A stretch of 64,000 nucleotides of DNA from NCBI GenBank assembly GCA_003168265.1, contig PMSV01000023.1:632001-696000 (forward strand). The letters run 5' to 3'. This document shows positions 31,569 to 51,900 of this stretch, piece after piece (position 1 is the stretch's first letter; every line of letters begins with the position of its first letter). The position numbers and the translations under genes are program-made. Under the pieces are notes generated by a model. The model had not been told where the DNA came from and ran no database searches. It was given only the letters and a program-made list of their open reading frames with translations. This DNA is from Chitinophagaceae bacterium (GTDB lineage Bacteria > Bacteroidota > Bacteroidia > Chitinophagales > Chitinophagaceae).

Positions 31569-31594
31569 TAGTAGAAGATTCAAAGTCGGCGAAT

Positions 31595-31960
31595 ATGCTT
31601 TATAAAATGCCAATAATGCTCTTAACTTTCCTCACCCTGATAAACGCCTGCATCAAATCAAATCAGCCCATCGGCCCGGGCTCCGGCTATTGCGATACAA
31701 CCAACATCACTTATTCAAGGAACGTACTACCCATCCTTGAATCCTATTGCTACCCCTGCCACAGTAATACGAATATGGCCTTCAGCAATGGCATCAGCCT
31801 CGAAGGTTACAAAAATACTAAAGACTGGGCCGGCACCGGCTACCTGATTGGCGATATCACGCACCAGGCTGGTTTCATTGGCAACTGGGGCAATGGTGGA
31901 ATATATTCTGGATTCAATCTGTCAAGAGTGTTCAACCTCAATAAAAGGAATGGCCGGTAA
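31595..31960 (+). CDS. Small lipoprotein with one c-type heme motif, C-terminus doubtful
   Basis: About 121 residues from ATG 31595. Signal peptide with lipobox-like LTLINAC. The mature part has CDTTNITYSRNVLPILESYC, then CYPCH, the CxxCH heme motif, then ISLEGYKNTKDW. Related Bacteroidota cytochrome-like lipoproteins end in a helix after an MP-rich segment. Here the frame instead ends in an unrelated tail, while a more family-like tail (ILDSICQECSTSIKG) is read in the next frame from about 31905. A frameshift near 31890 is possible. The stop overlaps the start of the next gene. Confidence 0.6.
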   Translation: MLYKMPIMLLTFLTLINACIKSNQPIGPGSGYCDTTNITYSRNVLPILESYCYPCHSNTNMAFSNGISLEGYKNTKDWAGTGYLIGDITHQAGFIGNWGNGGIYSGFNLSRVFNLNKRNGR

Positions 31961-33512
31961 AATTCATAATGAGATCACACAGAATGCGGATTGGAAGCTG
32001 CTTCTGTTTCTATTATTGCTGTTAAATGTAAAGCTGATTTTAAAGGCTACTGCCATCGGTTTCATTTATACTCTCAATCCGGATTTCAGGTTGGGTTTCA
32101 AACTCAAGAATTCAAGACTACCTTTGTTTTATTTGATCATTCCAGTCATTGCATGTTTCGATCTAATAACTTATGCTCTTTTCTTCAACCTCCGCTATGA
32201 TTTTGTATTTCTGACTGGCCTTTGTTTTTGGGCAATTTGCCTGCTTGCCACAAATCAACTAAAGCAGTTCTCAGAAAAGCTCAGCCGGGAAGTCATCCTA
32301 AATACCCTGACTCTTTTTTTCATCCTGAATGCCGCTCTTTCTTTAATAAATCTACTTTCAATTATTGCAGAAACCGGGAGCCTTAATCCCTTTCAATACC
32401 AGGGGCTCTACCAAAAATACTTTATTGGTACAGGAGATTATATCCGGGGTATAAGCCTTGATACTTCCAATACAAATGCCTTTATAAACGCATTTGGCAT
32501 CCTGTATTTTTTAAGAAATGAAAAATATTCAATGACCCTATTATGTATGTGCATTCTTCTGCTAACAGGAAGCAACCTGGCAAACAGCTTACTGATAATT
32601 TCATTAATTTATTTTGCATTAAATTCCTCCCGCGAACAGAAAAGCATCATCAGTATCTGCCTGTTTCTGTTCATCCTCTTTATCGCTAAAATCTCACCTC
32701 AAAACCAGGAATATGCCATGGGGATTGTGGAAAAATTCCTCCCAAAAGAAAACACTGCAATTGCCGCCGCGAGCCTTCCCGCCTCTGAAGAACAAAGAAA
32801 ACAATATGCCAAAAATGCCATTAATAGCGAATACACAATTCTCCAAAAGGAAGGCTTATTAGCAAATATAATCGCCACCAGCCCAGGCCCCAAACCCATC
32901 ATACCCATGCCTGATATCAATGGGCCTGTATACCAAAGCAAAAACGATTCCGGAACTCAACGGCTGATACTGATCAATTATTCCAGACAAAATCACCTTG
33001 ATACCATCTTTTCAAGTGTAAAAGACAGTTGGCAAAAAAAATCCGGTAAACTCATTTCCTTTCAGCAAACAGTTGCTTATTTCAAAACCCATCACTGGCA
33101 AATACCCACTGGAACCGGCATGGGCCAGTTCTCCTCCAAACTCGCCTTTCGTTCCACCGCATTAAATATTGCGGGTGGTTTTCCTAAGGAATGTACATAT
33201 GCCAGCAAAGCCTTTTTAAGCAACCATCTGGCAGTCTTTCTCTATTTTTTCACAAAGCAAAAAGAATTGCACTCGGTTGCCAATACGCCGGATTCTGTTT
33301 ACAATCAGTTGATGGGAGAATATGGATTGGCAGGAATACTCGCTTTGTTGATTTTCTATTTTGGTTATTTCCTGAAAGGCCGGGACCTAAGGATCACTAT
33401 TCCTTATATCATTCTACTTTCCGGCGCATTTGCCTTCGGATATTGGTTTGAGCAATTATCAATCGTTCCTTTATTCGAATTGCTTCTTTTTTCAAATAAA
33501 AATTCACTATGA
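31950..33512 (+). CDS. O-antigen polymerase/ligase-like membrane protein
   Basis: 520 residues from ATG 31950 (MAGKIHNEITQNADWK); the open frame extends to 31848 but overlaps the lipoprotein gene. About ten membrane segments, starting LLLFLLLLLNVKLILKATAIGF. A long soluble loop spans about residues 230-400, typical of Wzy/WaaL proteins, followed by NTPDSVYNQLMGEYGLAGIL, the usual late-loop motif. It likely joins glycan units in the periplasm. Stop overlaps the start of the next gene by 4 bases. Confidence 0.8.
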   Translation: MAGKIHNEITQNADWKLLLFLLLLLNVKLILKATAIGFIYTLNPDFRLGFKLKNSRLPLFYLIIPVIACFDLITYALFFNLRYDFVFLTGLCFWAICLLATNQLKQFSEKLSREVILNTLTLFFILNAALSLINLLSIIAETGSLNPFQYQGLYQKYFIGTGDYIRGISLDTSNTNAFINAFGILYFLRNEKYSMTLLCMCILLLTGSNLANSLLIISLIYFALNSSREQKSIISICLFLFILFIAKISPQNQEYAMGIVEKFLPKENTAIAAASLPASEEQRKQYAKNAINSEYTILQKEGLLANIIATSPGPKPIIPMPDINGPVYQSKNDSGTQRLILINYSRQNHLDTIFSSVKDSWQKKSGKLISFQQTVAYFKTHHWQIPTGTGMGQFSSKLAFRSTALNIAGGFPKECTYASKAFLSNHLAVFLYFFTKQKELHSVANTPDSVYNQLMGEYGLAGILALLIFYFGYFLKGRDLRITIPYIILLSGAFAFGYWFEQLSIVPLFELLLFSNKNSL

Positions 33513-34465
33513 ATAATCCACTGATCACCGTATTAATGCCGGCTTACAATGCTGAAAACTATATCCGAGAAGCGATTCAATCTGTATTGTGTCAGACATT
33601 TGAAGACTTCGAAATGCTGGTCATTGACGATGGCTCCTCCGATAGAACAAAACAAATAGTGGATGAATTTTCAGATATACGTATTAAACGAATCTCCAAA
33701 GCTCATGAAGGAATCTCAAAAACCCTTAATATCGGCCTCTATTGCTCAACCGGAAAATATATCGCCCGTTTTGACGCTGATGATATCTGTTTCCCCGAGC
33801 GGCTGCAATATCAGGTAAACTTTCTTGAATCCCACCCTGACCATTCATTGACTGGTTGCGATGCGGCATATATTCAGGAAGATGGAGAATACCTTTTCCA
33901 ATTCAAATGCATGGCCCACGAACATCATGAAATCATCCGAAAACTCTATTTCTACTGCCCATTCATCCATTCCGGGGTAATGTTCAGAAAGGAAGATGTT
34001 ATTGCTGCAGGGGGTTATCCTATCCATGCCCATCATTTTGAAGACTATTTATTATGGGTGAAGTTGGCCAAAAAGGGAAAGCTGCACAATATCCCAAAAC
34101 CCCTTATTAAAGTGCGCTTTAACGCGAAGTCTCTAACCATTGACGAGAAATGGCGAGGTTATAAATTTCGAAAGCTAAAAAGCCAGATTATTCACAGGGG
34201 GGAGGTTACCGAAAAGGAGGGAGCCCAACTGCTTGAAATCATCAAAGGACAAAATGATGAAGGACTAAAGCAGGCCGCATACCATGCTCTATGCGCCAAA
34301 AAGTTACTGGCAGACAACTACCAGCCGGGAGAAGCCAGAAGGCAGATCTTGAAGGCCATCAATTTTAAACCCTTTCGAATAGACAATTACGGATTGCTAA
34401 TCGTCAGCTATTTACCTGAAAAATTTATTAAATGGCTGCATAACCAAAGCCCTAACCGGCTCTAA
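33509..34465 (+). CDS. Glycosyltransferase family 2
   Basis: 318 residues, GT-A fold. ITVLMPAYNAENYIREAIQS opens it; the nucleotide-sugar loops VIDDGSSDRTK and ARFDADDICFPERL (DxD metal site) and SGVMFRKEDVIAAGG follow. No membrane segment, so a peripheral inner-membrane enzyme. It overlaps the previous gene by 4 bases and lies 9 bases before the next, part of one operon. Sugar specificity unknown. Confidence 0.94.
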   Translation: MNNPLITVLMPAYNAENYIREAIQSVLCQTFEDFEMLVIDDGSSDRTKQIVDEFSDIRIKRISKAHEGISKTLNIGLYCSTGKYIARFDADDICFPERLQYQVNFLESHPDHSLTGCDAAYIQEDGEYLFQFKCMAHEHHEIIRKLYFYCPFIHSGVMFRKEDVIAAGGYPIHAHHFEDYLLWVKLAKKGKLHNIPKPLIKVRFNAKSLTIDEKWRGYKFRKLKSQIIHRGEVTEKEGAQLLEIIKGQNDEGLKQAAYHALCAKKLLADNYQPGEARRQILKAINFKPFRIDNYGLLIVSYLPEKFIKWLHNQSPNRL

Positions 34466-34474
34466 TTTAAAAGG

Positions 34475-35548
34475 ATGAGAGTTGCATTTATCACGAGGTC
34501 AAGCCTATTTTCTGTTCCCGGGGGGGATACCATCCAGACTTTGGAAACGGTCAGGCATCTAAACCTGCTAGGTATTCATCCAGACATCAAATTATCCTGT
34601 GAGTCAATTGACTATGATGATTTCGACATTCTCCACTTTGTCAACCTGGGCCGGCCGGCTGACATACTTGTTCATTTAACCAAGGCCAGATTGCCCTTTG
34701 TTGTCACGACCAATTTTGTGGATTACAGCAGCTTTGACAGGCAGAACAGGAAGGGGCTTCCAGGTTTACTGTTAAAACAGCTTAGTGTCGATGGAACGGA
34801 GTACTGTAAGACCCTATTCAGATGGATCAGAGGAAAAGACAATTTAGGCACTCCTTCCTATTTATGGAAAGGGCAACGCAGGTGCATAACCCAAATACTG
34901 GAACAGGCCAAACACCTATTTTCCAACTCTAAATCTGAATATGATGCCATTGTAAGCGCTTACCAGGTCTCTCCCAACTACAGCTCAATTCCAAACGCCA
35001 TCAATAAGAATTTATTCAGGAATAACGATGAGATCAAAAAAGACTATTCAATGGTGCTCTGCGTCGCAAGGATCGAAGGCATAAAAAACCAGCTTAACCT
35101 GATCAGGGCTTTGAATCATACCGAATTCAGACTAATCCTCATCGGGAAGGCAGCCCCGAATCAGCGCTCCTATTACGAAGAATGTAAAAGAGCGGCTGCT
35201 TCTAATATTGAATTTATCAGCCACCTGCCTCAAACTGAACTATTGCCTTATTATCAAAAAGCCAAAGTCCATATTCTCCCGAGCTGGTTTGAAACCACTG
35301 GACTCAGTTCACTGGAAGCTGCAGCAATGGGTTGCAATATTGTCATTACAAACAAGGGTTACGCGAGGGACTATTTTCAGGAAGATGCGGTGTATTGCGA
35401 TCCAGGATCGATTGAAAGCATTTTTTCAGCAGTATCGATTGCCAGTGCGTTGCCTTCCAATAAAACCCTGATGAGCAGGGTTGCTTCAGAATACACCTGG
35501 GATAAAGCAGCCTCGCAAATAGCAAATATCTATAAACAAATCGTATAA
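34475..35548 (+). CDS. Glycosyltransferase family 4-like
   Basis: 357 residues, GT-B fold. N-terminal VAFITRSSLFSVPGGDTIQT is the acceptor-side domain; the C-terminal donor domain has VLCVARIEGIKNQLNLIRAL and the EX7E-type motif ETTGLSSLEAAAMGCNIVIT. Soluble and peripheral. Ends 5 bases before the next gene. Confidence 0.92.
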   Translation: MRVAFITRSSLFSVPGGDTIQTLETVRHLNLLGIHPDIKLSCESIDYDDFDILHFVNLGRPADILVHLTKARLPFVVTTNFVDYSSFDRQNRKGLPGLLLKQLSVDGTEYCKTLFRWIRGKDNLGTPSYLWKGQRRCITQILEQAKHLFSNSKSEYDAIVSAYQVSPNYSSIPNAINKNLFRNNDEIKKDYSMVLCVARIEGIKNQLNLIRALNHTEFRLILIGKAAPNQRSYYEECKRAAASNIEFISHLPQTELLPYYQKAKVHILPSWFETTGLSSLEAAAMGCNIVITNKGYARDYFQEDAVYCDPGSIESIFSAVSIASALPSNKTLMSRVASEYTWDKAASQIANIYKQIV

Positions 35549-35553
35549 GAACC

Positions 35554-36696
35554 ATGCCGCTTAAAATTGGAATCTTAAGTACAAGAGGTATACCAAACCA
35601 TTATGGTGGCTTTGAGCAGCTTGCTGAATATCTCTCCATCGGATTGGTAGAAAAAGGACACGAGGTGATCGTTTATAATTCCCGACTCCATCCCTTCAAA
35701 AAGGAAAAATGGAACGAGGTATCTCTGGTTCATTGTTACGATCCGGAAGATAAGATAGGATCAGCCGGTCAGTTCATCTATGATTTTAATTGTTTGATCG
35801 ACGCGCGAAATAGAAATTTCGATGTGCTGCTGATCCTGGGCTATACCAGTATTTCTGTTTGGAAAGCAATTTTCCCCAGTGCTCCGGTAATCATCTTCAA
35901 TATGGATGGAATGGAATGGATACGTTGCAAATATTCAAATTCAGTCAAGAGGTTTCTCTTGTATGCGGAAAAACTTGCAATAAATGCGGGCGATTATTTT
36001 ATAGCCGATTCGATTGCAATTCAAAGCTATTTAACACAAAAATATGGCCTCCTTCCAGGATATATCGCCTATGGCGCCGAGATCAGGGAAGACCAGGACG
36101 AAAATATCCTTGCACAATACGGTATAAAAAGGAATGAATACTATATCCAGGTTGCAAGAATGGAACCCGAGAATAATATCGAAATGGTATTAGAGGGATT
36201 CAATGCCAGCTTCGCCTCCGAAAAAATGATCGTATTGGGCGATATATCCAACAAATTCGCCAGGCGATTAGTCAGCAAATTCGGCACCGACCACCGGATA
36301 ATGTTCTTAGGCGCTATCTATGACAAAAAAATCAAGCACAGCCTTTGCCATTATAGCAAAATCTATTTCCACGGGCATAGCGTCGGCGGCACCAATCCTT
36401 CGCTGCTCGAAGCCATGGCGAGCAAAACACTGATCGCCGCTCACAAAAACGAATTCAATCAGGCGGTTCTCCAGGATAATGCTTTTTATTTTTCAAATGC
36501 GGAAGAACTAAAAAGCATCATCCAAAAGGAAATCTGCCCCTTTCAGAAATTGGCCAAACTTGAGAACAATTTAAAGCGCATCAGACAGGATTTCAGTTGG
36601 GACAAGATTGTAGACCAATACGAAAACTTCATCCTAAGCGCGTACAAACAGAGAAAACTTGAAAGAAATCTTAATTATAAGGGACAGCCTTGTTAA
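35554..36696 (+). CDS. Glycosyltransferase with DUF1972 N-terminus
   Basis: 380 residues, GT-B fold. The N-terminus (IGILSTRGIPNHYGGFEQLA, then IYDFNCLIDARNRNFDVLL) is DUF1972 type, found in rhamnosyl- and related transferases (WchF-like). The C-terminal domain has HGHSVGGTNPSLLEAMASKT. Overlaps the next open frame by 38 bases. Confidence 0.93.
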   Translation: MPLKIGILSTRGIPNHYGGFEQLAEYLSIGLVEKGHEVIVYNSRLHPFKKEKWNEVSLVHCYDPEDKIGSAGQFIYDFNCLIDARNRNFDVLLILGYTSISVWKAIFPSAPVIIFNMDGMEWIRCKYSNSVKRFLLYAEKLAINAGDYFIADSIAIQSYLTQKYGLLPGYIAYGAEIREDQDENILAQYGIKRNEYYIQVARMEPENNIEMVLEGFNASFASEKMIVLGDISNKFARRLVSKFGTDHRIMFLGAIYDKKIKHSLCHYSKIYFHGHSVGGTNPSLLEAMASKTLIAAHKNEFNQAVLQDNAFYFSNAEELKSIIQKEICPFQKLAKLENNLKRIRQDFSWDKIVDQYENFILSAYKQRKLERNLNYKGQPC

Positions 36697-37948
36697 CAGG
36701 ATCAGTTATTACCATCTCCTGGCATTCCTGGTGCTCCTTCCATTCGACCGTTTTTACAGCGAGCTGGTCTTAATAAGCCTGGTCATTCACACAATCATCC
36801 ATCTCAAAAAGAGCCGCCTTCGATCAATTCCCGCGATCATACTGCTTTTTAGCTCAATCTGGCTCTTAACTATCTTCGGCACACTCTATACCCGGGACCC
36901 TCAACAGGCATTCAAAGACTGGGAAAAGCAATTGGCACTCATTCTGTTTCCCCTAATCTTCTCAATTAACTCCATTGAACTAAACAAATACAAATTAAAC
37001 CTTCTGAAGTCCTTTTCCATTACAAATCTGCTGACTGGCATTTATTTATATTTTGACGCATTCCGGATTATTATCTATAACCATCTCCCGTTTTCTTCGA
37101 TACTGGACCCCATCTTCACAAGCCATAATTTCTCCCAGGCTATCGGCCTCCATGCTACCTATTTTTCCTTGTACATCTCCATTTCTCTTATAACAATGAT
37201 CTATCTATCCATCATTTCTATGAAGAGAAATTTTTACCTTGCAGCCAGTATAATTCTATTCTTGGTGTTGTTACAGCTTCAGTCCAGGTCCGTATTGATC
37301 GCGAGCCTGCTCATCATTAATTTTCTTATTCCATTCAATCTACTCAAGAGAAATGTAAGTAAGAAACTTATTGCGGTCTTTCCGGCACTTAGCTTAATAA
37401 TTATTTTCTTTACATTTCAAAACCACAATTTCAAAAAAAGGTTTGTTTCAGATTTAAAGTCTGATATTTCACAAAATGATGGGAAAATTCATGACGTTGA
37501 ACCCCGCGCCGCTCGATGGGCCTGTGCCCTGGAACTCATAAAAGCATCGCCTTTGATTGGTTATGGATCCGGATCCGAAGTTCAATTATTGAAAGAAAAA
37601 TATTTTCAAAAAGGCTATTATACATCCTTTCTTAACGAACTGAATGCGCACAATGAATACCTTAGCCTTACGATCCAATTCGGTTTCGCGGGTCTCGCGA
37701 TCTACTTATTCCTCCTAATAATTGCATTTGCCAATGGCCTCAGCAGAAAAGATATTCTTTTAACAGGATTTATAGCGCTCATTGCCACCGTTTCCTTGTC
37801 GGAAAACATACTCGATACCAATAAAGGAATCTTTTTCTTCAGCTTCTTCCTTTCCTTTTTATCGTGGCCTTTGAATGAGTTTGAAATTGCTCCGACTAAT
37901 TATTCAAGCTCGCCTTTTGAAGATGGTATAATTTCAAGTGTTTTGTAA
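36659..37948 (+). CDS. O-antigen ligase/polymerase family membrane protein
   Basis: About 429 residues from TTG 36659, which overlaps the previous gene by 38 bases; the first ATG is not near the N-terminus, so TTG is favoured. About ten membrane segments. The family mark is SPLIGYGSGSE then LNAHNEYLSLTIQFGFAGLAI (WzyC region). Second such protein in the locus, beside that at 31950; one may polymerise and the other ligate. Its 3' end overlaps the convergent glycosyltransferase gene by 53 bases. Confidence 0.88.
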   Translation: MKEILIIRDSLVNRISYYHLLAFLVLLPFDRFYSELVLISLVIHTIIHLKKSRLRSIPAIILLFSSIWLLTIFGTLYTRDPQQAFKDWEKQLALILFPLIFSINSIELNKYKLNLLKSFSITNLLTGIYLYFDAFRIIIYNHLPFSSILDPIFTSHNFSQAIGLHATYFSLYISISLITMIYLSIISMKRNFYLAASIILFLVLLQLQSRSVLIASLLIINFLIPFNLLKRNVSKKLIAVFPALSLIIIFFTFQNHNFKKRFVSDLKSDISQNDGKIHDVEPRAARWACALELIKASPLIGYGSGSEVQLLKEKYFQKGYYTSFLNELNAHNEYLSLTIQFGFAGLAIYLFLLIIAFANGLSRKDILLTGFIALIATVSLSENILDTNKGIFFFSFFLSFLSWPLNEFEIAPTNYSSSPFEDGIISSVL

Positions 37949-38663
37949 AAACTGATCTTGCAGTCTCAATGGAGATGAATAGCCCATAATAGCCATCCAG
38001 AAAGCCAAGCCTTAAGAAATATCCGTGAAAAAAATCCCATACCGGATTCACCAGGATATGAAATAGACTCGTCCTTCTTCCCGCCTTAAATAAGAATTCG
38101 GCATAAATAGAACTGAAATAATCTCTTTTCCTTTCACAATCTTCCAGGCTATTGTATGAGTAATGAAGAATATCCCCCTTCAAATGCTTTACGGCAAGAT
38201 TCCTTGTCAAAACCACCTTATCATGAGGATTGATCCCCCCCCATTTTGCAAATTGCCTATTGAATAAACGTAATTTCCTGTCCGGATACCATAGTCCGAA
38301 CCTTATTTTTTTCCCGCAAAAAAAAGCTCGGCGATTCATGGTAAAAGCCTCAGCCCTGCAGTTCCGTTTAATATCCAGGATCGACCTAGCCAGTTCATCG
38401 CTCAATACTTCATCCGCATCGAGGCTTAATATGTGATCATAGGAGGCCAAATGAAGGGCAAAATCTTTTTGCTCAATATGCCCCCTGAATTCTTCCTGTC
38501 TTACAATCGCTCCTTTACTCTGGGAAATAGCCACTGTTTTGTCCTTTGAAAAAGAATCCACAACAATGATCTCATCAGCTACGACTTTGACCGAATCAAG
38601 GCAACGGCCAATATTATTTTCTTCATTTTTGGTTATTATGGTAACAGACAATTTAATCATCAT
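37896..38663 (-). CDS. Glycosyltransferase family 2 (LPS core type)
   Basis: 256 residues from ATG 38661-38663, overlapping the TGA of the upstream sugar transferase gene; a second ATG follows directly (38660). SVTIITKNEENNIGRCLDSV, then IIVVDSFSKDKTV, LSLDADEVLSDEL and WYPDRKLRLFNR are the marks of the WaaE/KdtX-like group, which adds glucose or another sugar to a core. A hydrophobic-aromatic C-terminus suggests membrane contact. It converges with the ligase. Confidence 0.93.
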   Translation of the reverse strand: MMIKLSVTIITKNEENNIGRCLDSVKVVADEIIVVDSFSKDKTVAISQSKGAIVRQEEFRGHIEQKDFALHLASYDHILSLDADEVLSDELARSILDIKRNCRAEAFTMNRRAFFCGKKIRFGLWYPDRKLRLFNRQFAKWGGINPHDKVVLTRNLAVKHLKGDILHYSYNSLEDCERKRDYFSSIYAEFLFKAGRRTSLFHILVNPVWDFFHGYFLRLGFLDGYYGLFISIETARSVFTKHLKLYHLQKASLNN

Positions 38664-39316
38664 ACAATATTTCTGAGAGAGGAGAAAAAAAGCCCTGCCG
38701 TTTTCCAAATAATCCGGAAATCAAGTCCTAAACCGGCATTCCTTATGTAAAACGCATCCCACTGATACCTCCTGAAAATCCTTTCTAAATCGGGCGCCGG
38801 GCCATGAAATCCTTTAACCTGTGCCATTCCTGTAATCCCGGGCTTTACCACAAGCCTGAAATCATAATCCCTGATCATCGCAGAAAATCGTCGGCTCTCG
38901 CTCACCATATGCGGCCTGGGCCCCACAATGCTCATATTTCCCATCAACACATTCAGGAACTGTGGAAACTCATCGATATTGGTCTTGCGTAGAAATCTTC
39001 CGATGCGAGTGATTCGCTTATCATCCTCCACTGCCTGAAGCCTATCCGCTTCCTGATTTATCCTCATCGACCTGAATTTATAGCAGGTAAACTGTTCGTT
39101 ATTTTTCCCCACTCTTTTCTGTAAAAAGAATACAGGCCCCTTTGAATCAAGCCATATAAGAAAAGCAATCAGGGGGAAAAGCCAGCTCATGACAGCAACG
39201 AGAAAAAGAAAAGATAAGATGATATCGACAGTTCTTTTGACATAGTCCTCTTTTAAATGGCCTTCAACAGATTTCCTCTCCAAAATCTTTTCTGTAAAAC
39301 TGCTGTCTATGATCAT
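38660..39316 (-). CDS. Initiating sugar transferase (WcaJ/WbaP-like)
   Basis: 218 residues. It moves a sugar-phosphate to undecaprenyl phosphate, which starts lipid-linked glycan building. One membrane helix at about 29-52 ([16 protein letters not shown]), then [44 protein letters not shown] and [10 protein letters not shown], the full motif set. Only the short catalytic core is present, without the four N-terminal helices of large PglB/WcaJ forms. Overlaps the next gene by 4 bases. It indicates the locus makes an undecaprenyl-linked product. Confidence 0.95.
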
Positions 39317-39408
39317 TTAAATCCCTTTTGAAAATGATAAAACCCAAAGCAACCTTTTGACAGGATTGAAAGTTTCTATTATTAGAAACGCCGGAGCAGA
39401 TTATACAG

Positions 39409-42658: not shown

Positions 42659-42972
42659 TTCCTTGTAACGGAATAAATAAAATAATCGGGATTGATAATG
42701 CCCTTGTTAAAACAAATCAATTCTTTGAACCGGAAAATGCTTTTATCACATCTGATCTCGTTATCAGAAATATAGTGAGTAATAAAATATAACAAATAGT
42801 TCCAGAGGCGCACATGCCCGTCATATTGCATATTAAAATAAAGGCTTCTCAATGACTCGCTATCCCTAGCTATCAAAAAATGCTGGGCCTCATCCAGCCA
42901 GAGCTCATGATGGTAAATACCCCAGGCGCTGACAATAAAAAAGACAATGGTTATCGCTAAAGACTGACGCAT
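42655..42972 (-). pseudogene. Remnant of a PMT/ArnT-like glycosyltransferase
   Basis: 105 codons from ATG 42970-42972. The N-terminal 70 residues match the start of family 39/83 membrane glycosyltransferases: one helix (AITIVFFIVSAWGIYHH), then the ELWLDEAQHFLIARDSES motif with its catalytic-type DE, and GHVRLWNYLLYFITHY. Full members are about 450-500 residues with more than ten helices; here only this piece remains and a 35-residue tail of other origin or from the C-terminus follows. In-frame internal deletion is the simplest account. It still overlaps its neighbours as an operon member. Confidence 0.65.
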
Positions 42973-42977
42973 ACTGA

Positions 42978-44027: not shown

Positions 44028-44028
44028 A

Positions 44029-44778: not shown

Positions 44779-46219
44779 AAGGTTTTTGATAAAAATTGAC
44801 CTTATACCTAAGTCCGGAGACCAGTTTTATGATATTCCGCTTCCATTGGCCAAGCCTTATATCTGTCACTGTTGGGAAATAACCATTCAGCACAGTTTCA
44901 AAATTTTTAATCTTATCGATCATCTCAGCCCTCAGCCAGGGAGTAAGAGGGTTTTTACGCAGGTCGAAATTCTGCCAGGCCGGGCTGGCCCAATCCTCCA
45001 ATGTTTTAGGGAAGGAAAACCCATTTGCCAGCACCTCCTTATAAAGTTCAGAACCTTCCGTCGGCACAGGACTATATACATACAGAATGATCTCCGTACC
45101 AGGATTGATGGTTTTTATCTTTTTAATAAAATCAATATCAAAATCGATCTGTTCTTCAACTTTCTCAGGAGTCGCCGCCGGCATTCCAAGGACAAATGAA
45201 TATTCGGGGATGATATCAAACTGCTTAAGCCTTGCCGCAAACTCCAGGATCTGTTCACCACTCTGGGTACCGCCCTTATCCATACGTTTTAGCAATTCAT
45301 CATTACCACTCTCCGCTCCAAAAAAGATCATCCTGCAACCTGCTTCGCGCAAAGTGTCCAGGGACTCATCAGAAAACCGGTGCATTGTATCAATTCTGGC
45401 CATCCCCCACCAGTTCATCTTTTCCGGCCTGATCAATTTTGCAAACTCAACGGCCCGCTTTTCCGAAACAAAAAAATTGTTATCGTGGAACTCAATGGAA
45501 TCTGCTCCCCATCTCTGTTTGACGTATTTAATATCCTTATAGACGTGTACGGCCGATTTAGCCTTCCATCTTGCCTCATAAATCGGCACGACGGCGCAGA
45601 ATGAGCAGGAGAAAGGACAGCCTACACTTGAATGGTAGGCAAAAGTCTTATCGCCGAGATAGGTCTTGCCCAGATAGGCTTTATCAATCGAATAAAACCG
45701 GTCTATTTTGTCATAAGGCAAGGCAGGCAGATCATCCTGTTCAATCAGGTCCTCTTTCGCTGATCTTATGATATTATCCCCCGACTTCCAGATCAGGTTT
45801 TTGATCAGTTCAAAAGGCTTGTTATGCTCCAGCGCATAGATCAATTTGGGAAATGCATGATCGCCTGGTCCATTAACCACAAAATCAACAAAACCAGCAT
45901 CTAAAACAACCTTAAACTGGCTAGTAGGGAAGTACCCGCCCCAGATCATTATCGTCTGTGGGAAATTCTCTTTAATCTTTTTTGCAATCGGAATCGCCTG
46001 CCTCAACTGCGGCCCCGGCATCACGGTAAAACCGATGTATTTGAATGAAGTATCACTTAAGTAGTTTTCTATTCTTTCATAGGGGTTGCTTTCCCAATTG
46101 CCATCGACAATCACCCATTCGTAAAAGCCGTCCACAGATGCCGCGATGTTCAGAATCGAATTCGGCACTCTGTGTTTCGCAATAGCGCTCCTCGGATTGA
46201 ATAAAAGTATTTTACACAT
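44717..46219 (-). CDS. B12-binding-type radical SAM protein
   Basis: About 500 residues from ATG 46217-46219 (MCKILLFNPR); the frame extends to 46261 without need. A B12-binding-like domain occupies about 1-165 (FTVMPGPQLRQAIPIAKKIK, MIWGGYFPTSQFKVVLDAG). Radical SAM core: C201, C205 and C208 in SSVGCPFSCSFC. Different from its neighbour at 41189 in the linker and C-terminus. Divergent from the methyltransferase at 46336; the 116-base gap should carry both promoters. Confidence 0.92.
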   Translation of the reverse strand: MCKILLFNPRSAIAKHRVPNSILNIAASVDGFYEWVIVDGNWESNPYERIENYLSDTSFKYIGFTVMPGPQLRQAIPIAKKIKENFPQTIMIWGGYFPTSQFKVVLDAGFVDFVVNGPGDHAFPKLIYALEHNKPFELIKNLIWKSGDNIIRSAKEDLIEQDDLPALPYDKIDRFYSIDKAYLGKTYLGDKTFAYHSSVGCPFSCSFCAVVPIYEARWKAKSAVHVYKDIKYVKQRWGADSIEFHDNNFFVSEKRAVEFAKLIRPEKMNWWGMARIDTMHRFSDESLDTLREAGCRMIFFGAESGNDELLKRMDKGGTQSGEQILEFAARLKQFDIIPEYSFVLGMPAATPEKVEEQIDFDIDFIKKIKTINPGTEIILYVYSPVPTEGSELYKEVLANGFSFPKTLEDWASPAWQNFDLRKNPLTPWLRAEMIDKIKNFETVLNGYFPTVTDIRLGQWKRNIIKLVSGLRYKVNFYQKPYEIKLLHRVWKYRQPEIQGF

Positions 46220-46335
46220 CCTTAAAGTAGAAACGCCCACCAAAGCTTTGCGGTTGCCCACGGGGTACAGACATATTAATAGAACTAGCCTTCCCTTAGC
46301 CCAAATCCTGCGTTTGTACTCAGAAATATCCAGAC

Positions 46336-47091
46336 ATGCAGTCTCTCCTTAGAATCAAAAAGGTCATAAAAAAACCTTTCGAAATTCGACCCAGGACTAT
46401 TGAACCTGAAAAAGCCTATGATATCTGGGCCCCGGACTATGATAACCAACCTAATAATTTAATTTTAACAATGGAGCAGGAATTGTTTTCCGGCTTGCTT
46501 CAAAATCTTCCACTCCAAAAAAAGATCATAATTGATGTGGGCTGCGGCACCGGAAGGCATTGGCAAGAATTGTTCGCAAAGGATCCTAGGTTAATAATCG
46601 GATTTGACGTTTCTGAAGGAATGCTTGCCATCTTAAAAAACAAATACCCTGATGCCATAATATATAAGCATACAGACAACCAATTGTCAATGCTGTGTAA
46701 CCGGTACTGCGACCTCATCATCTCAACGCTCACCCTTGCCCATATCGATAATATTGCCGAGGTTTTTAAGGAATGGGATCGCGTGTTGAAACCTGGTGGA
46801 AGTCTTATTATCACAGACTACCATTGTGAAGCACTGTTAAAAGGAGCCAGCAGGACCTTCCGGAATAAAAACAAGCTAATTGCCATAAAAAGCCATATTT
46901 ATCCGATAAAACAAATCATGCAGATTGCCGATAGCAGCGGAATCTCTCAAATCCAATTCTGCGAAAGAAAAATCGATGAATTAGTGAAACATTATTACAC
47001 AAAACAGAACGCAGATCATCTGTACCAGCATTTTTATGGCACTCCCATTATCTATGGGATTCATTTCAAAAAAGGCTATGCTTTTAGCTAA
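46336..47091 (+). CDS. Class I SAM-dependent methyltransferase
   Basis: 251 residues. IIDVGCGTGRHWQELF is motif I, IGFDVSEGMLAIL the acidic ribose site, ISTLTLAHIDNI and LKPGGSLIITDYH the later strands. The C-terminal 60 residues are extra. First gene of the plus-strand block that also holds the amidohydrolase and the family 9 transferase. Confidence 0.9.
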   Translation: MQSLLRIKKVIKKPFEIRPRTIEPEKAYDIWAPDYDNQPNNLILTMEQELFSGLLQNLPLQKKIIIDVGCGTGRHWQELFAKDPRLIIGFDVSEGMLAILKNKYPDAIIYKHTDNQLSMLCNRYCDLIISTLTLAHIDNIAEVFKEWDRVLKPGGSLIITDYHCEALLKGASRTFRNKNKLIAIKSHIYPIKQIMQIADSSGISQIQFCERKIDELVKHYYTKQNADHLYQHFYGTPIIYGIHFKKGYAFS

Positions 47092-48214
47092 TGTAAATAT
47101 ACCAGGTCGACCCGGAGCCAAAAATATTCTGATAAGGGGTGATATTATTCAGTGCATATCCGATTGTGAATACTCAGGTATCACGTTTGAATTCAATAAC
47201 GCAACCGCAATCCCCGGTCTCATCAACTCTCATGATCATCTTGAATTCAATTTATTTCCTCCGCTAAAAAACCGGATATACGATAACTATACCGAATGGG
47301 GGAAAGATATTCACCTGCACAACAAAAAAGAAATTGATAAAGCATTGCAAGTGCCCCTTCCTTTAAGAATTCAATGGGGCATCTATAAAAACCTATTAAA
47401 CGGTTTTACTACCGTCATTAACCATGGAAAACGGCTAAGGGTCAAGGACGACCTGATCAATGTGATTCAGCAAACCCAAACCATCCACTCAGTTGGCTTC
47501 GACAAATACTGGAAATGGAAACTCAACAATCCTGTCAAAATAGGCCTCCCTGTTAATATCCATGTCGGAGAAGGAAAAGACGAGCAGGCGCATGCTGAAA
47601 TAAACAAGCTTATCCGCGCTAATTTCCTTAAAAGAAAAATGGTGGGAATCCATGCCGTAGCAATGGATCCGGAACAGGCTGCCCATTTTAAGGCGCTTGT
47701 TTGGTGCCCTGCCTCAAATTATTATATGCTGGAAAAAACCGCCTCGATTGACAGCCTGAAAAGCCGCAGCAATATCCTATTCGGATCCGATTCGACCCTA
47801 ACATCACCCTGGAATATCTGGGAACATTTTCGTGCCGCTAAATCTACAAAAATGCTTAACAATGCGGAGTTGCTCGAATCAATCACTACAAAACCCGCAC
47901 TTATCTGGGGCCTGAATGGATATGGGAAATTAGAAAGAAATTACAAGGCCGATATTCTGATAATCAGAAATCCGGAAAATATCTTCTCAACCAATCCGGA
48001 TGATATTTTATTAGTTATTAAAAATGGAAAAATAATATTATTCGACATAAGCCTGAGGCAAGAGCTAGATAATATGAATCAGGAGCTAAATCAAAATAAC
48101 TTCAGTAAAATCAGGATTAAAAGCTCGGAAAAATATGTCTGTGGAAACCTAAACCTATTGATAATTGAAATCAAAAAATACTACCCGGAAGCAGAATTGC
48201 CCATCAGTATTTAA
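47078..48214 (+). CDS. Amidohydrolase superfamily enzyme
   Basis: About 378 residues from ATG 47078 (MLLANVNIPG); a longer frame starts at 47036 inside the previous gene. The beta/alpha-barrel metal ligands are all visible: SHDHLEFN (HxH), NIHVGEG, GIHAVAM and LFGSDSTLTS with the Asp. The small beta domain is split between the ends (NILIRGDIIQ and ADILIIRNPENIF). It hydrolyses an amide, amine or related bond; family members include chlorohydrolases and deaminases. An enzyme of this type in a glycan locus is unusual. Ends 50 bases inside the next gene's frame. Confidence 0.86.
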   Translation: MLLANVNIPGRPGAKNILIRGDIIQCISDCEYSGITFEFNNATAIPGLINSHDHLEFNLFPPLKNRIYDNYTEWGKDIHLHNKKEIDKALQVPLPLRIQWGIYKNLLNGFTTVINHGKRLRVKDDLINVIQQTQTIHSVGFDKYWKWKLNNPVKIGLPVNIHVGEGKDEQAHAEINKLIRANFLKRKMVGIHAVAMDPEQAAHFKALVWCPASNYYMLEKTASIDSLKSRSNILFGSDSTLTSPWNIWEHFRAAKSTKMLNNAELLESITTKPALIWGLNGYGKLERNYKADILIIRNPENIFSTNPDDILLVIKNGKIILFDISLRQELDNMNQELNQNNFSKIRIKSSEKYVCGNLNLLIIEIKKYYPEAELPISI

Positions 48215-49202
48215 CAATTCCCACCCTCCCAGGCGAATACTGGCCATTCGCTTCCACGCGATAGGAGATGTAGTAATCACACTCCCCTACCTTCAATTCT
48301 TGAAAAAGAGTCTTCCCCACATAAAACTGGATCTACTGATCAGGGAAGAAACTGAAGAAATCCCTAAAAACATCCTCTTATTTGACAATATATATTCCAT
48401 CAGAGGAGGAAGAAATTATAAGAAACAATTGATCTACTCAGCATTCTTATTGCCCCGTCTCTATTTAAACCATTACGATGTAGTCATCGATCTTCAGAAT
48501 AATACTGTCAGTAAATTTATCAGGAAGGCTCTCATGCCAAAAGCCTGGGCCGAATTTGACCGTTTTTCATCCAATCCGGCAGGTGAAAGGACAAGAAAAA
48601 CAATTGAAGCGATTGGCCTTGGCCAATGTTTCGCATCAACGGGATTTATTCTAAAAAATCAAGCGGAGCCTCTTGAAATATTGAAGAGATTTGGCTGGAA
48701 AATCGAAAACCAGTTGGTGATACTGAACCCTGCAGGTGCATTTGAAACCCGGAACTGGCCCATTATTAATTATGTCGATTTTTCAAAACAATGGTTGAAT
48801 CGATTCCCCGGTACACAATTTGCCATTATAGGATTAGGGAAAATTTCAGAGAAAGCCCAATATCTTGAAAAATGCCTGGGAGAATGCCTCATCAATCTCG
48901 TCGGCCACACTAACCTTTCTCAGGCATTCGGAATCATTCAACATGCATCGTTTATTCTGTCAGAGGATTCAGGCCTGATGCATATGGCATGGGTATCAGG
49001 GATTCCTACAATGGTATTATTCGGATCGACGAGAAGCGATTGGGCAAGACCGCTCGGAGATCATACGGATTATCTTGATTCATCAGATCTGGAATGCGGC
49101 AACTGCATGAAGAAACATTGCAAATTCGAGGATATTTTTTGCCTTACCAGATACAGCGCTGAATATGTCTTTGAAAGGGCAGTTTCACTTGCAAGGAAAT
49201 AA
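48165..49202 (+). CDS. Glycosyltransferase family 9 (heptosyltransferase-like)
   Basis: 345 residues. LAIRFHAIGDVVITLPYLQF opens the GT-B fold. The donor end has FILSEDSGLMHMAWVSGIPT and VLFGSTRSDWARPLG, then a Cys pair (CGNCMKKHC). Start codon uncertain: TTG 48165 is the only usual start in frame before the conserved RRILAIR and overlaps the amidohydrolase by 50 bases. Probably adds heptose or a similar sugar. Its end overlaps the convergent GT4 gene by 18 bases. Confidence 0.9.
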   Translation: MKSKNTTRKQNCPSVFNNSHPPRRILAIRFHAIGDVVITLPYLQFLKKSLPHIKLDLLIREETEEIPKNILLFDNIYSIRGGRNYKKQLIYSAFLLPRLYLNHYDVVIDLQNNTVSKFIRKALMPKAWAEFDRFSSNPAGERTRKTIEAIGLGQCFASTGFILKNQAEPLEILKRFGWKIENQLVILNPAGAFETRNWPIINYVDFSKQWLNRFPGTQFAIIGLGKISEKAQYLEKCLGECLINLVGHTNLSQAFGIIQHASFILSEDSGLMHMAWVSGIPTMVLFGSTRSDWARPLGDHTDYLDSSDLECGNCMKKHCKFEDIFCLTRYSAEYVFERAVSLARK

Positions 49203-50246
49203 CTCCATGATCTTTTTTGTGCTATCCTTCATTAAATAAGGGTAGGAAGGGTTATAGCAGGTTCCGGGATCGAGCAAGATTTTCAAAGCTTTGTGCAGCA
49301 TCTCCTCTTCTGAGTCCACGATATACCAATGATTGATTACGGACTGCATCGGTTTACAAAAACTTATAACATTCGTTCCGGCCGCTAAAGCTTCAAGACA
49401 GGCTCCGCTAAATCCCTCATAGGAAGACGTATGTAGAAATATTTTACTGCGTTGCATTATTTTCAAGACCTGTTCGTGGGGAAGTTCTCCGGTAAACGAT
49501 ATATTATTATCCATCTTCAGGCTCTTAACAAGAGATTCGAGATGATTTCTTTCAATTCCTTCGCCGCAGATCATAGCCCTGATGCCTGGAATGCTATCAC
49601 TAATTTGCTCAATAATTGAAATGGCTCTGTCATACTGTTTAAGTATTATAAGGGAGCCTGCGCAGCAGATATCAATATCTCTTTCAATTCCTTTATTTGC
49701 GAATTCGCCCGCATCGATCCCATTAGGAATAGTATAAGCTGGAAGAACCGAATGGTTTTTATTAAACTCATCTCTAAGAAAATCAGATAGAGCGATCAAT
49801 TCACCCGGTTTCGGCCCGATCCATTTCACATATTTATTCTCACTTTTCGCATCCTGACCAAGAATCCAGGTATAATGCCTGAGCTTATTTTTTTTTGCAA
49901 ATCCTGATCCTATTAAAGCGCATTCCCCACACCAAAAGGAAAGCAGCCCCTGAATCTCATTTTCTTCAGAAAGTGACTTCAGCACTTTCTTAATCCTTTG
50001 CCATAAAACCCAGCGCCATAGTTTACCCCTGTTTTTCCCCCCAAATGCAATTACCCGACAGCCTTCCCAACTATATGTACGACCAGTATTTGGATATTGA
50101 AAACTGAGAACAATAATTCCAAGACCCGGAAATAATCTATGAAGTTCCCTGACAAAAAGCTGCTGTGCAGGAAGGCAATTCGAGTCCTCTTCATTAGCCG
50201 GGAATCCCGGAGTAAGTATTATGAATATTTTGGGTTTGCTGTTCAT
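49185..50246 (-). CDS. Glycosyltransferase family 4
   Basis: 353 residues, GT-B. LTPGFPANEEDSNCLPAQQL is the acceptor-side start; the donor domain holds CAGSLIILKQYDRAI, then SFTGELPHEQVLKIM and SYEGFSGACLEALAAGTNVI with the conserved Glu pair. The gene overlaps the ABC exporter gene upstream by 53 bases, the two being coupled. It faces the family 9 transferase. Confidence 0.92.
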   Translation of the reverse strand: MNSKPKIFIILTPGFPANEEDSNCLPAQQLFVRELHRLFPGLGIIVLSFQYPNTGRTYSWEGCRVIAFGGKNRGKLWRWVLWQRIKKVLKSLSEENEIQGLLSFWCGECALIGSGFAKKNKLRHYTWILGQDAKSENKYVKWIGPKPGELIALSDFLRDEFNKNHSVLPAYTIPNGIDAGEFANKGIERDIDICCAGSLIILKQYDRAISIIEQISDSIPGIRAMICGEGIERNHLESLVKSLKMDNNISFTGELPHEQVLKIMQRSKIFLHTSSYEGFSGACLEALAAGTNVISFCKPMQSVINHWYIVDSEEEMLHKALKILLDPGTCYNPSYPYLMKDSTKKIMELFPCK

Positions 50247-51900
50247 TCAAATAAAGAATTTTGTCACAATATGAAATGGCTTGCCGGTTATGGGTGATCA
50301 ATAAAACAATCCTGCCCTCATTTGCAAGGGCCCTTAAATGCCGGAGGATATTATCGCTTGATCCCTCATCAAGCCCGTTGAACGGCTCATCCATAATGAT
50401 CAATCCGGCATTTTTGTACAGTGCCCTCGCTATTGCAATTCTTTGCCTTTGCCCACCGCTTATATTTTTACCGTTCTCAGTAACAATGGTATCGAGCCCA
50501 AAAGGGAATTTGTGCAACGTTTCCTGAAGGCCGGACCGGGCAATAGCAGCATCCAATCGGTCTTTATCATAATTATTTTCCCCAAGAACGATATTGTTCA
50601 ACACCGAATCATGGATCAGAAAGGTCTGTTGCTTTAAGTAAGAAATATCCTTCCAGAAATTCCTTAAATATTCTGAATCACAAATAAGCCCGTTAATGAT
50701 TATCTTTCCGAATGACGGTTTATAAAAGCCCAGTAAAAGATGAATCAGGGTAGTTTTTCCTCTTCCCGAAACCCCTGATAATCCGATAAACTCTCCCTTT
50801 TTAGTATCCAGGTTTATCTCATTGAGCAGTCTGTTTTTCTCTCTTTCAAAGCAAAGGTTTTGAAAGCTGACCGAATGGATTTTTGTCATGGCCCCCGGCA
50901 CTGAAGTCATCTTCTGCCCTTTCTCCGATATGAGCCCCTCAATCGTAAATTCATAATCCCTCACATGGCTGTTCGCATTAATGATCCTCACGACTCCAGG
51001 GATTATCTTATAGGCTCCGGCAATAAAAGCAGCGATTGTGGTAAATGAAATAAGGCTTCCATGTCCCAACAATGCATTGGTGGCTATCAGAATAAATAGA
51101 CTTAAAATCGCGAATACCTCTATTACCCTCACAGAAATGCCTTGGTTAATCTGCAAGTCCGCCAGGTGACCGTTCAACCACTGCTGCTGGGTCGAATAAC
51201 GCCGGGAAAAATAATCGTTCTTCCCGTACAAATTGCTCTCCATAAAGCCCGAAAGGCTTTCCTGTAAATACTGGAGCACTTTCTCGCTCCGTTTTTTAAT
51301 ATCCCCCCTCACTACCTGCAACTTATAGCGAATACCATAGGTAAGCAGGAAAAATGGAGGCAACATCAGCATCAGCAACAAGAAAAATAGTTTGGCATTG
51401 AAGAAAAGTATGGCTGTTGCGGTTAAAACCACCAGGAGAGATTCGGTTATTATTTGCTGGACACCGGCCAATACGTAATGGACGAATTCAGCAGGCTGAT
51501 GGGAAATCTTTTTAATAAGCACGGAAGAATCAGTTCCTACATGATCCTCATAACTACCTTCCAGAAAATCCATCAAAAGTCCGTGGGAAATCCTAGAAGC
51601 AACACTGTAAACAAAACGATACTGGAATTTCAGGACAAAATACCCTGCTACGCTCTTAAGAGAAAAAAACAATAAGAAGGCCGAGATAAGGAGCATGGAA
51701 TGCCTATCCAAAATTGCTTCCGGCAGCCTGAAATGAAAATTCAGTGTCTGTCCTGTGTAAATATTAACTACGAAAAGCATTAGGGCAAGAGAAGCCACAT
51801 CGGCCACGCTGATCAAAAAATTTAAAAAGATCAGCAGACAGCTCAGGCGCTTTTCTCTTCTGTCCAGAATCTGTAATATATGCTTGATAATCCTGATCAA
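50194..51900 (-). CDS. ABC exporter, fused membrane and ATPase domains (MsbA/PglK-like)
   Basis: 568 residues from TTG 51898-51900. About six membrane helices in residues 20-310, then the ATPase: Walker A GVSGRGKT (376-383), signature ISGGQ (480-484), Walker B LIIMDEP (500-506) and H-loop His537. A half-transporter that works as a homodimer. With an undecaprenyl-phosphate sugar transferase in the same locus, a lipid-linked oligosaccharide flippase of the PglK kind is the likely role; a multidrug or lipid exporter is the alternative. First gene of its block. Confidence 0.92.
   Translation of the reverse strand: MIRIIKHILQILDRREKRLSCLLIFLNFLISVADVASLALMLFVVNIYTGQTLNFHFRLPEAILDRHSMLLISAFLLFFSLKSVAGYFVLKFQYRFVYSVASRISHGLLMDFLEGSYEDHVGTDSSVLIKKISHQPAEFVHYVLAGVQQIITESLLVVLTATAILFFNAKLFFLLLMLMLPPFFLLTYGIRYKLQVVRGDIKKRSEKVLQYLQESLSGFMESNLYGKNDYFSRRYSTQQQWLNGHLADLQINQGISVRVIEVFAILSLFILIATNALLGHGSLISFTTIAAFIAGAYKIIPGVVRIINANSHVRDYEFTIEGLISEKGQKMTSVPGAMTKIHSVSFQNLCFEREKNRLLNEINLDTKKGEFIGLSGVSGRGKTTLIHLLLGFYKPSFGKIIINGLICDSEYLRNFWKDISYLKQQTFLIHDSVLNNIVLGENNYDKDRLDAAIARSGLQETLHKFPFGLDTIVTENGKNISGGQRQRIAIARALYKNAGLIIMDEPFNGLDEGSSDNILRHLRALANEGRIVLLITHNRQAISYCDKILYLNEQQTQNIHNTYSGIPG

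Follow-up and report, generated by a model that had tools for sequence, protein, structure and literature searches.

What does a locus make when it sets genes for glycan assembly beside B12-type radical SAM proteins, an amidohydrolase, and a nucleotidyltransferase, and do these tailoring genes belong together? The locus lies in a 64,000-nucleotide stretch of a Chitinophagaceae bacterium (GCA_003168265.1, contig PMSV01000023.1, positions 632,001 to 696,000 of the forward strand). We call this whole stretch the window, and all coordinates below are given within it. An earlier note had proposed that the product is a lipid-linked glycan carrying C-methyl or other radical-chemistry changes, or that a second small molecule is attached, and it knew of no described pathway with such a gene set.

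Gene content of the locus

Profile scans (Pfam and NCBIfam) confirmed a locus of 20 kb and recovered 18 of 18 genes, as follows.

g1, 31848..33512, +: polymerase-like multi-pass membrane protein (listed length 554 aa; a later true start is probable)
g2, 33509..34465, +: GT2 glycosyltransferase (Glycos_transf_2, 111.4 bits)
g3, 34475..35548, +: GT4 glycosyltransferase (Glycos_transf_1, 67.1 bits)
g4, 35554..36696, +: DUF1972/GT4 glycosyltransferase, Cps2T-like (211.7 bits, cut-off 500)
g5, 36659..37948, +: Wzy_C polymerase/O-antigen ligase family (PF04932, 72.2 bits, cut-off 31.7)
g6, 37896..38708, -: GT2 glycosyltransferase (62.3 bits)
g7, 38660..39316, -: initiating phosphoglycosyltransferase, WcaJ C-terminal type (Bac_transf, 206.6 bits, cut-off 27)
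g8, 39409..40407, +: winged-helix and pol-beta-type nucleotidyltransferase; core
g9, 40390..41211, -: class I SAM methyltransferase; near-core
g10, 41189..42658, -: B12-type radical SAM protein (Radical_SAM, 77.4 bits); core
remnant, 42659..42977, -: membrane-protein gene remnant (tblastn pieces of a relative's intact protein)
g11, 42978..44027, -: radical SAM/SPASM protein (Radical_SAM, 57 bits; SPASM, 50.7 bits; each over its cut-off); accessory
g12, 44029..44778, -: class I methyltransferase; accessory
g13, 44717..46261, -: second B12-type radical SAM protein (Radical_SAM 60.8 and B12-binding 40.9 bits); accessory
g14, 46336..47091, +: class I methyltransferase; accessory
g15, 47036..48214, +: amidohydrolase, nucleobase/nucleoside deaminase (ATZ/TRZ) branch (Amidohydro_1, 54.2 bits; true start probably near 47081); accessory
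g16, 48165..49202, +: GT9 heptosyltransferase-like (PF01075, 74.6 bits)
g17, 49185..50246, -: GT4 glycosyltransferase (80 bits)
g18, 50194..51900, -: MsbA/PglK-like ABC exporter (ABC_tran, 97.4 bits)

The gene content described earlier is thus all present: an initiating transferase, six glycosyltransferases (g2, g3, g4, g6, g16, and g17), the Wzy_C protein g5, and the exporter g18, together with a tailoring set of two B12-type proteins (g10 and g13), the SPASM protein g11, the methyltransferases g9, g12, and g14, the amidohydrolase g15, and g8. Where two polymerase- or ligase-like proteins had been named, g5 stands by its Wzy_C score, whereas g1 is a membrane protein of seven hydrophobic segments with no Pfam hit, and in an alignment of its family only 1 of 15 members reaches Wzy_C (E value of 0.006). 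Homologues of g1 occur in 41 of 80 loci (the best 80 of 484 relatives). The remnant between g10 and g11 corresponds to a gene for a multi-pass membrane protein, of which relatives in the same genus have an intact copy; the two ends are matched and the middle is gone (63% identity over residues 5 to 83 and 41% over residues 468 to 508 of the 510-aa protein of relative L067, by tblastn). A scan for promoter-like sites and terminators was left unused, as the former were no commoner than in shuffled sequence (34 versus a mean of 36.2) and the latter numbered 17 versus 13.1 (SD 3.4).

Two constituents of a Wzy-dependent locus were found at the scores listed, a polyprenyl-phosphate glycosylphosphotransferase (g7) and a Wzy polymerase/ligase (g5). 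Against the WcaJ_sugtrans model, g7 scored 268 bits, under the cut-off of 410.75. Among g1 to g18, Pfam detected neither a Wzx flippase nor a nucleotide-sugar synthesis gene. The best match to PF01943 (Wzx-like) in the host genome lies at C8:552032, ~111 kb from g1, and none of the 10 proteins scanned around it (L204) is a glycosyltransferase; among 52 relatives' loci, at least 6 contain a Polysacc_synt protein. Among the best 80 of 484 relatives, g7, g16, and g18 were found in 31, 8, and 17 stretches, respectively, many of these stretches stopping short of g16 to g18. The radical enzymes are more conserved than the glycosyltransferases (median identities of 60 to 71% versus 33 to 56%).

Catalytic residues are conserved in g8, g10, g13, g11, and g15. 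The CxxxCxxC motif is present in all 69 g10 homologues and all 52 g13 homologues, and g11 combines a radical SAM core with a SPASM domain. The B12-binding domain (cut-off of 32.1 bits) is recognized in g13, and g10 falls below it at 25.2 bits; g13 is the most conserved gene of all (median identity of 71% over 51 loci). The host genome also carries a B12-dependent methionine synthase domain. In the window itself, neither g10 nor g13 scores as high as the cut-off of an NCBIfam model. The best named model is BchE (cut-off of 481.35), against which g10 scores 135.9 and g13 111.9 bits; these bit scores are those of the window proteins, other family members having been compared by E value. Identification of g10 or g13 as BchE, HpnJ, PhpK, or AprD4 was rejected, as the window-protein scores lie far under the curated cut-offs. 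In g15, residues H51, H53, H161, E164, H191, and D237 are invariant in 34 sequences, a pattern (HxH, H, E, H, D) that we take to be the metal and acid residues of the ATZ/TRZ deaminase branch. In fold comparison it matches adenosine deaminase 4gbd (E value of 2.7e-14), and against named equivalogs such as aminofutalosine deaminase it scores at best 36.5 of 320 bits.

The nucleotidyltransferase assignment of g8 rests on an SG..SK...DxD motif whose residues S123, G124, S127, D136, and D138 are invariant in sets of 23 and 48 sequences; GS...DxD is presumably the active-site motif of pol-beta-type nucleotidyltransferases. The window protein scores 20.2 bits, just under the Pfam cut-off of 21, and its relative in L089 passes both Pfam cut-offs (Polbeta, 28.1 versus 26.9; NTP_transf_2, 26.5 versus 21). 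The AF2 model (pLDDT of 92.1) has MntA as its top Foldseek match (E value of 0.0074), with AAD(9), AadA, and LinB lower. No solved relative was matched by Foldseek at an E value of 0.001 or below, and the best profile match has an E value of 0.11. The protein has its own winged-helix N terminus, which resembles MarR/IclR-type regulators in fold comparison, and a helical C terminus. Median identity is 45% for g8 versus 63 to 71% for the B12 proteins, which could mean that the substrate of g8 varies.

Co-occurrence of g8 and g10

Across 244 genomes of the host family, g8 occurs in 64, g10 in 61, and both in 60; 4 carry g8 only, 1 (63% complete) carries g10 only, and 179 carry neither, these presence/absence sets resting on tables with differing E-value limits (1e-5, 1e-100, 1e-100, and 1e-40). 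The two genes lie at most 12.4 kb apart in 57 of the 60 family genomes with both, and on separate contigs in the other three. A phylum sample of 296 genomes gave 24 with both, 3 with g8 only, none with g10 only, and 269 with neither, and in all 24 the pair shares a contig with gene starts 869 to 5,333 bases apart. The two collections overlap in genomes (L095 and G158, for example), so their counts cannot be added as independent. This grouping is far from chance by Fisher tests, which ignore shared ancestry. Nine g8 loci have no g10 beside g8; g10 was found elsewhere, at 60 to 63% identity, in all 8 genomes searched, a search that covered these loci apart from L145, where g8 is next to a contig end. 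In five Mucilaginibacter genomes, g1, g2, g4, and g5 are kept with g8, and g9, g10, and g13 lie apart.

Recurrence across genera had been set beforehand as the test of the earlier note, and in the phylum sample 12 family groups have g8-g10 pairs, with g8, g10, g13, and g15 clustered together in at least 5 of the 12 (f1, f3, f14, f26, and f34). The tailoring set proposed there is not a single unit: g8 and g10 form the core and g9 is near-core (72 of 80 loci, the best 80 of 484 relatives), whereas g13, g11, g12, g14, and g15 are accessories, g13 being found in 36 and g15 in 25 of the 64 g8-bearing family genomes. The unbroken order from g8 to g15 is retained in 24 of the same 80 loci, from three families.

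In six genomes g8 is present and no g10 was found. Two of these are incomplete (G079, 89%; G200, 87%), and in G200 the g8 frame is broken by an unread stretch. An epimerase-type SDR (PF01370) and a methyltransferase lie near g8 in 5 of the 6; the sixth, G351, lacks the SDR pair as well as g10. None of the 140 stretches (not genomes) holding g10 yielded the SDR, in a search of 152 stretches, six of them (L184 to L189) without g8, with two query proteins that a distant SDR may escape. In two of these six genomes g8 forms a fusion with a GT4 glycosyltransferase, the GT4 half being recognized by Pfam, which leaves the g8 half undetected, and the g8 half by profile (E values of 2.5e-25 and 5.3e-17). 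Neither g8 (E value of 1e-5) nor g10 (1e-60) had a match in 72,556 plasmid records.

Taken together, the neighbouring genes, the split loci, and the GT4-g8 fusions support a glycan as the product well, and g8 and g10 very probably act in one glycan pathway. That g8 is nearly always accompanied by a B12 radical enzyme points to an undescribed chemical editing of surface sugars, and it is plausible that the product bears C-methyl groups or other marks of radical chemistry. As a whole, the locus is best explained, on balance, as a dedicated Bacteroidota surface-glycan pathway with a conserved tailoring core.

A possible route and its alternatives

In the route we propose, g7 would initiate a lipid-linked glycan to be extended by the glycosyltransferases g2, g3, g4, g6, g16, and g17. 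It is quite possible, if somewhat short of probable, that a sugar or sugar phosphate receives a nucleotide from g8 and becomes an activated or protected intermediate, which g10 and the methyltransferase g9 would edit (C-methylation, ring rearrangement, or deoxygenation) ahead of its use by a glycosyltransferase, and that in other genomes the epimerase-type SDR and methyltransferase take the place of g10 and g9. AadA, AAD(9), and LinB adenylylate hydroxyls of small molecules, and known pol-beta enzymes such as AadA and LinB act on those of drugs, so that an activating role for g8 is a guess. Rather doubtfully, g13, g14, and g15 may make a further, optional change, with g15 removing a nitrogen group by hydrolysis. 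The lipid-linked unit would then be flipped by g18 and polymerized or ligated by g5/g1.

The same pol-beta likenesses could instead mean that g8 attaches a nucleotide to the glycan itself, whether nascent or finished, as a decoration or chain stop, with no intermediate for g10. The GT4-g8 fusions place g8 beside the glycan, and g15, of the nucleobase/nucleoside deaminase branch and with a complete active site, might edit the attached base. Yet g15, given its presence in 25 of 64 g8-bearing family genomes, cannot be required for the g8 product, and the pairing of g8 with g10, or with the SDR instead, is left unexplained; we regard this reading as unlikely. It is quite unlikely that the tailoring genes make a second lipid-linked small molecule, cyclitol-ether-like or aminoglycoside-like, exported by g18 beside a polymer made by g1 to g7. 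The locus does have its own ABC exporter, g9 to g15 are sometimes separate from g1 to g6, and the top model scores of g10 and g13 are to BchE and HpnJ, though far under cut-off; HpnJ makes the cyclitol ether from a lipid-borne glucosamine in the membrane that has first been deacetylated (PMC12583986). However, in the five genomes with split loci g8 stays beside the polymer genes rather than g9 to g15, and the two GT4 fusions likewise tie it to the glycan.

A role of g8 outside glycan synthesis, as an AMPylator of protein like MntA or a regulator of the locus through its winged helix, is improbable. Its top fold match is indeed an antitoxin nucleotidyltransferase, and its N-terminal part is MarR/IclR-like, but no fold match passes an E value of 0.001, no HEPN protein was found by Pfam among 10 recurrent unlabelled neighbour families scanned, and neither the switch of partner from radical SAM protein to SDR nor the GT4 fusion fits. 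Peptides are often matured by SPASM and B12-type radical SAM proteins accompanied by an ABC exporter, and some NCBIfam RiPP models match weakly, so we considered whether the locus encodes a short peptide that its radical SAM proteins modify. This reading is largely refuted, and we hold it highly improbable: among 1,286 intergenic small open reading frames from 81 loci, no precursor gene recurs widely, the largest family reaching 8 loci with the three members examined at locus edges, and the longest such frame in the window is the membrane-protein remnant. A peptide from elsewhere in the genome, or from a frame that overlaps another gene, is still conceivable. Finally, O-antigen-type loci do shuffle cassettes, and the patchy g7, g16, and g18 would suit a chance assembly, but the co-occurrence of g8 and g10 in both samples, even when separated, and the intact g8-to-g15 order already contradict it, leaving it scarcely credible.

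Relation to known systems

Wzx/Wzy exopolysaccharide and O-antigen loci initiated by WcaJ share with this locus an initiating phosphoglycosyltransferase, several glycosyltransferases, and a Wzy_C protein; the present locus differs in having an ABC exporter instead of Wzx, three radical SAM proteins, and g8. The exporter g18 aligns with the PglK flippase model over nearly its full length (residues 5 to 552 of 568), but falls short of the equivalog cut-off in each case (MsbA, 217.6 of 602 bits; PglK, 179.6 of 1000). With AadA, AAD(9), LinB, and MntA, g8 shares the GS...DxD-type active site, but it has no fold match to them at an E value of 0.001 or below, and its termini are distinct.

AprD4/GenK-type radical SAM enzymes edit sugar-like rings by radical chemistry in aminoglycoside pathways, and 6fd2 (apramycin oxidoreductase 4, which we take to be AprD4) is the second PDB match of g10 and the first of g13; against the AprD4 model, however, g10 scores 77.6 of 500 bits, and the present locus is no antibiotic cluster. 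TIGR04295 (B12_rSAM_oligo), presumably linked to oligosaccharides by its model name, covers B12 radical SAM proteins noted earlier in sugar loci, but g10 scores 84.5 of 400 bits. The HpnI-HpnK-HpnJ system (PMC12583986) resembles the locus in that a radical SAM protein edits a lipid-borne sugar unit, HpnJ being the second-best model of g10. It differs in score (129.8 of 577.6 bits), in the glycan polymer genes that the present locus adds, and in its deacetylase HpnK, as g15 belongs to the deaminase branch. A full-text search of the open-access literature gave no pathway with this gene set among the matches listed, as far as their available text extends.

A broader reading, which we consider doubtful, is that g8 represents a new kind of sugar-activating enzyme of the pol-beta fold, whose nucleotide-linked sugar would be the substrate of a B12 radical enzyme in some genomes and of an SDR in others, making radical chemistry a standard and interchangeable step of surface-glycan synthesis in many Bacteroidota. 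If true, a widespread phylum would share a way of making radical-edited cell-surface sugars that has gone unstudied, B12 supply would help determine surface structure, and sugar activation would gain a new fold. The g8-g10 pair, with the SDR version as its natural comparison, would then be an entry point to new sugar chemistry.

Gene content and conservation of the locus

All of the genes named in the earlier note were found, between 31.8 and 51.9 kb of the window, on contig C8 of a 4.3-Mb genome. They are designated here as follows.

g1-g6: polymerase-like proteins and glycosyltransferases
g7: initiating transferase
g8: nucleotidyltransferase
g9: methyltransferase
g10: B12 radical SAM protein
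g11: SPASM radical SAM protein
g12: methyltransferase
g13: second B12 radical SAM protein
g14: methyltransferase
g15: amidohydrolase
g16: GT9 glycosyltransferase
g17: GT4 glycosyltransferase
g18: ABC exporter

There was no Wzx among g1-g18, and no nucleotide-sugar gene set was present in the locus. Positions 42659-42977 hold the remnant of a gene for a multi-pass membrane protein of 510 to 522 aa, an uninterrupted copy of which separates g10 from g11 in stretches of same-genus relatives (L055, 5650-7218, and L067, 14584-16116); the gene has been lost from the locus in the window's species. Upstream of g1, a small open reading frame (31517-31960) with no Pfam family carries a haem-type CxxCH motif. 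Just downstream of the locus, a 1,610-aa protein with a glycine-rich domain (53591-58423) has a C-terminal Por secretion tail scoring 26.9 bits against a cut-off of 27 and is possibly a surface protein. Elsewhere in the same genome, two adjacent Cupin_8/JmjC-type proteins lie beside a Wzx-like gene (L204, 11885-13640).

GTDB species genomes were scanned with the g8 alignment, and the best 80 of at least 484 relatives were taken; these came from Chitinophagaceae, Mucilaginibacter, Pedobacter, and Dyadobacter, together with records named to phylum or order level only. Many of these 80 stretches are shortened by contig ends. Among them, g9 was seen in 72, g10 in 71, g11 in 55, g13 in 53, g12 in 50, g5 in 48, g15 in 36, g14 in 34, g7 in 31, g18 in 17, and g16 in 8. 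The order g8-g9-g10 was kept in 66 of the 80, and the order from g8 to g15 was unbroken in 24, spanning Chitinophagaceae, Sphingobacteriaceae, and Spirosomataceae.

Median identities to the window genes in the same best 80 loci were 71% for g13, 63% for g10, and 60% for g9 and g11, compared to 48% for g15, 45% for g8, 44 to 45% for g12 and g14, 42 to 54% for g1-g5, g7, and g17, and 33% for g6 (g16, 56%, in 7 loci only; g18, 42%, in 4 loci). Judged by these medians, the radical enzymes and g9 are the most constrained part of the locus.

Several loci carried additional genes. A second protein of the B12 radical SAM type, which shares less than 40% identity with g10 and is mostly accompanied by a diverged g9-like methyltransferase, lies near g10 in L047, L049, L051, L054, L057, L059, L076, L079, L084, L088, L112, L190, L195, L198, and L203, and constitutes an alternative accessory module. 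Close to the locus, L050, L061, L062, L063, L065, and L066 share a flavin-reductase-like protein; L050, L061, and L063 additionally encode a GNAT protein and a polysaccharide deacetylase. A single 624-aa protein at L087 10428-12302 matches Bac_transf (169.3 bits) and, weakly, Wzy_C (20 bits; cut-off, 31.7); it joins a polymerase-like segment to the initiating transferase.

Co-occurrence of g8 and g10

Four genes were searched in 244 Chitinophagaceae genomes, including that of the window. Of these, 64 had g8 (in 41 of 101 genera), 61 had g10, 39 had g13, and 26 had g15. Both g8 and g10 were present in 60, on one contig and at most 12.4 kb apart in 57 and on different contigs in 3; only G183, which is 63% complete, had g10 without g8. 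g10 accompanied g13 in 37 of 39 genomes, and g8 accompanied g15 in 25 of 26. Among 296 genomes spread across Bacteroidota, g10 (E ≤ 1e-80) occurred in 24, from 12 family groups, each time with g8 on the same contig and with starts 869 to 5,333 bases apart; g8 without g10 was seen in 3 of the 296. All seven loci reached through g15 in other families held g8, g9, and g10. The recurrence across genera that the earlier note had proposed as a test was thus observed for g8-g10 pairs in both sets, with association tests made without regard to shared ancestry.

The link also outlasts physical separation, which is stronger evidence than mere neighborhood. Nine of the best 80 stretches lacked g10, and in all eight of these that were searched it was found elsewhere in the genome, at 60 to 63% identity. 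In five Mucilaginibacter genomes, g8 stays with g1, g2, g4, and g5, while g9, g10, g13, and others lie apart: in L117 they are ~16 kb away on the cluster's other side, and in L132, L138, L155, and L168 they occupy a different contig or are separated by hundreds of kilobases. In a sixth (L150), g1-g6 are found with g9, g10, g11, g13, and g15, and g8 is on another contig.

Six genomes had g8 but no g10-like protein (E ≤ 1e-20), four from the host family (G050, G079, G200, and G240) and two from another (G351 and G361); g8 can exist without g10. A seventh, G259, holds broken pieces of g8 and g10 side by side (L212, G259 C3:2259-3967), a pair that seems to have decayed together. This decay, the patchy spread across 41 of 101 genera, and the absence of g8, g10, g13, and g15 from the same-genus genome G127 argue for joint gain and loss of these genes.

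An SDR alternative and fusions to a glycosyltransferase

An Epimerase-family SDR and a class I methyltransferase were found near g8 in five of the six genomes without g10. They adjoin g8 in G050, G200, and G240, are one gene away in G361, and lie ~3.5 kb away in G079, past a GT2 and a g18-like gene; neither a radical nor an SDR module was found in G351. Of 152 fetched stretches, 3 had the SDR (E ≤ 1e-15), and all 3 lacked g10; no SDR was found in the 140 that hold g10. A GT4 glycosyltransferase makes up the N-terminal half of one protein in G351 (656 aa) and in G361 (668 aa), and the g8-like part makes up its C-terminal half. Pfam detects only the GT4 half, and the g8 half was detected by profile (E values of 5.3e-17 and 2.5e-25). 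On this evidence, g8 is paired with either a radical or an SDR editing module and is in places joined to glycosyl transfer within one protein. Because SDRs of the Epimerase family act mostly on nucleotide sugars, the pairing with an SDR suggests that g8 may supply a nucleotide-linked intermediate.

Enzymes and proposed pathway

The high-confidence predicted structure of g8 (pLDDT, 92.1) had no solved match at E ≤ 0.001; above that value, MntA was the best match, followed by winged-helix regulators and, lower, AAD(9), AadA, and LinB. The GS..DxD-type motif of g8 shows no variation across 48 sequences. The predicted structure of g15, also of high confidence (pLDDT, 92.8), matched deaminases of adenosine, triazine, guanine, and cytosine; its metal ligands and the glutamate of its HxGE motif are invariant. 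Radical SAM cysteines are kept in all homologs examined of g10 (69), g13 (52), and g11 (52). Because the window's g10 and g13 fell below every NCBIfam cut-off, they can be assigned neither a methylation nor any other radical reaction. The host probably uses B12, as its genome encodes a B12-dependent methionine synthase domain.

In the pathway we propose, g7 would start assembly by transferring the first sugar phosphate to undecaprenyl phosphate, the glycosyltransferases would lengthen the glycan, and the unit would be flipped by g18 and polymerized or ligated by g5/g1; these are the steps expected of the gene families named above. The co-occurrence of g8 and g10, the SDR replacement, and the fusions lead us to infer that g8 and g10/g9 may prepare an edited sugar and that g11-g15 may add a further, optional edit.

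The locus is real and conserved, and its gene set was not found described in open-access full texts among the matches listed. As a whole it is a variant of the known surface glycan cluster; what is new is that g8 is paired with g10 or, alternatively, with an SDR.
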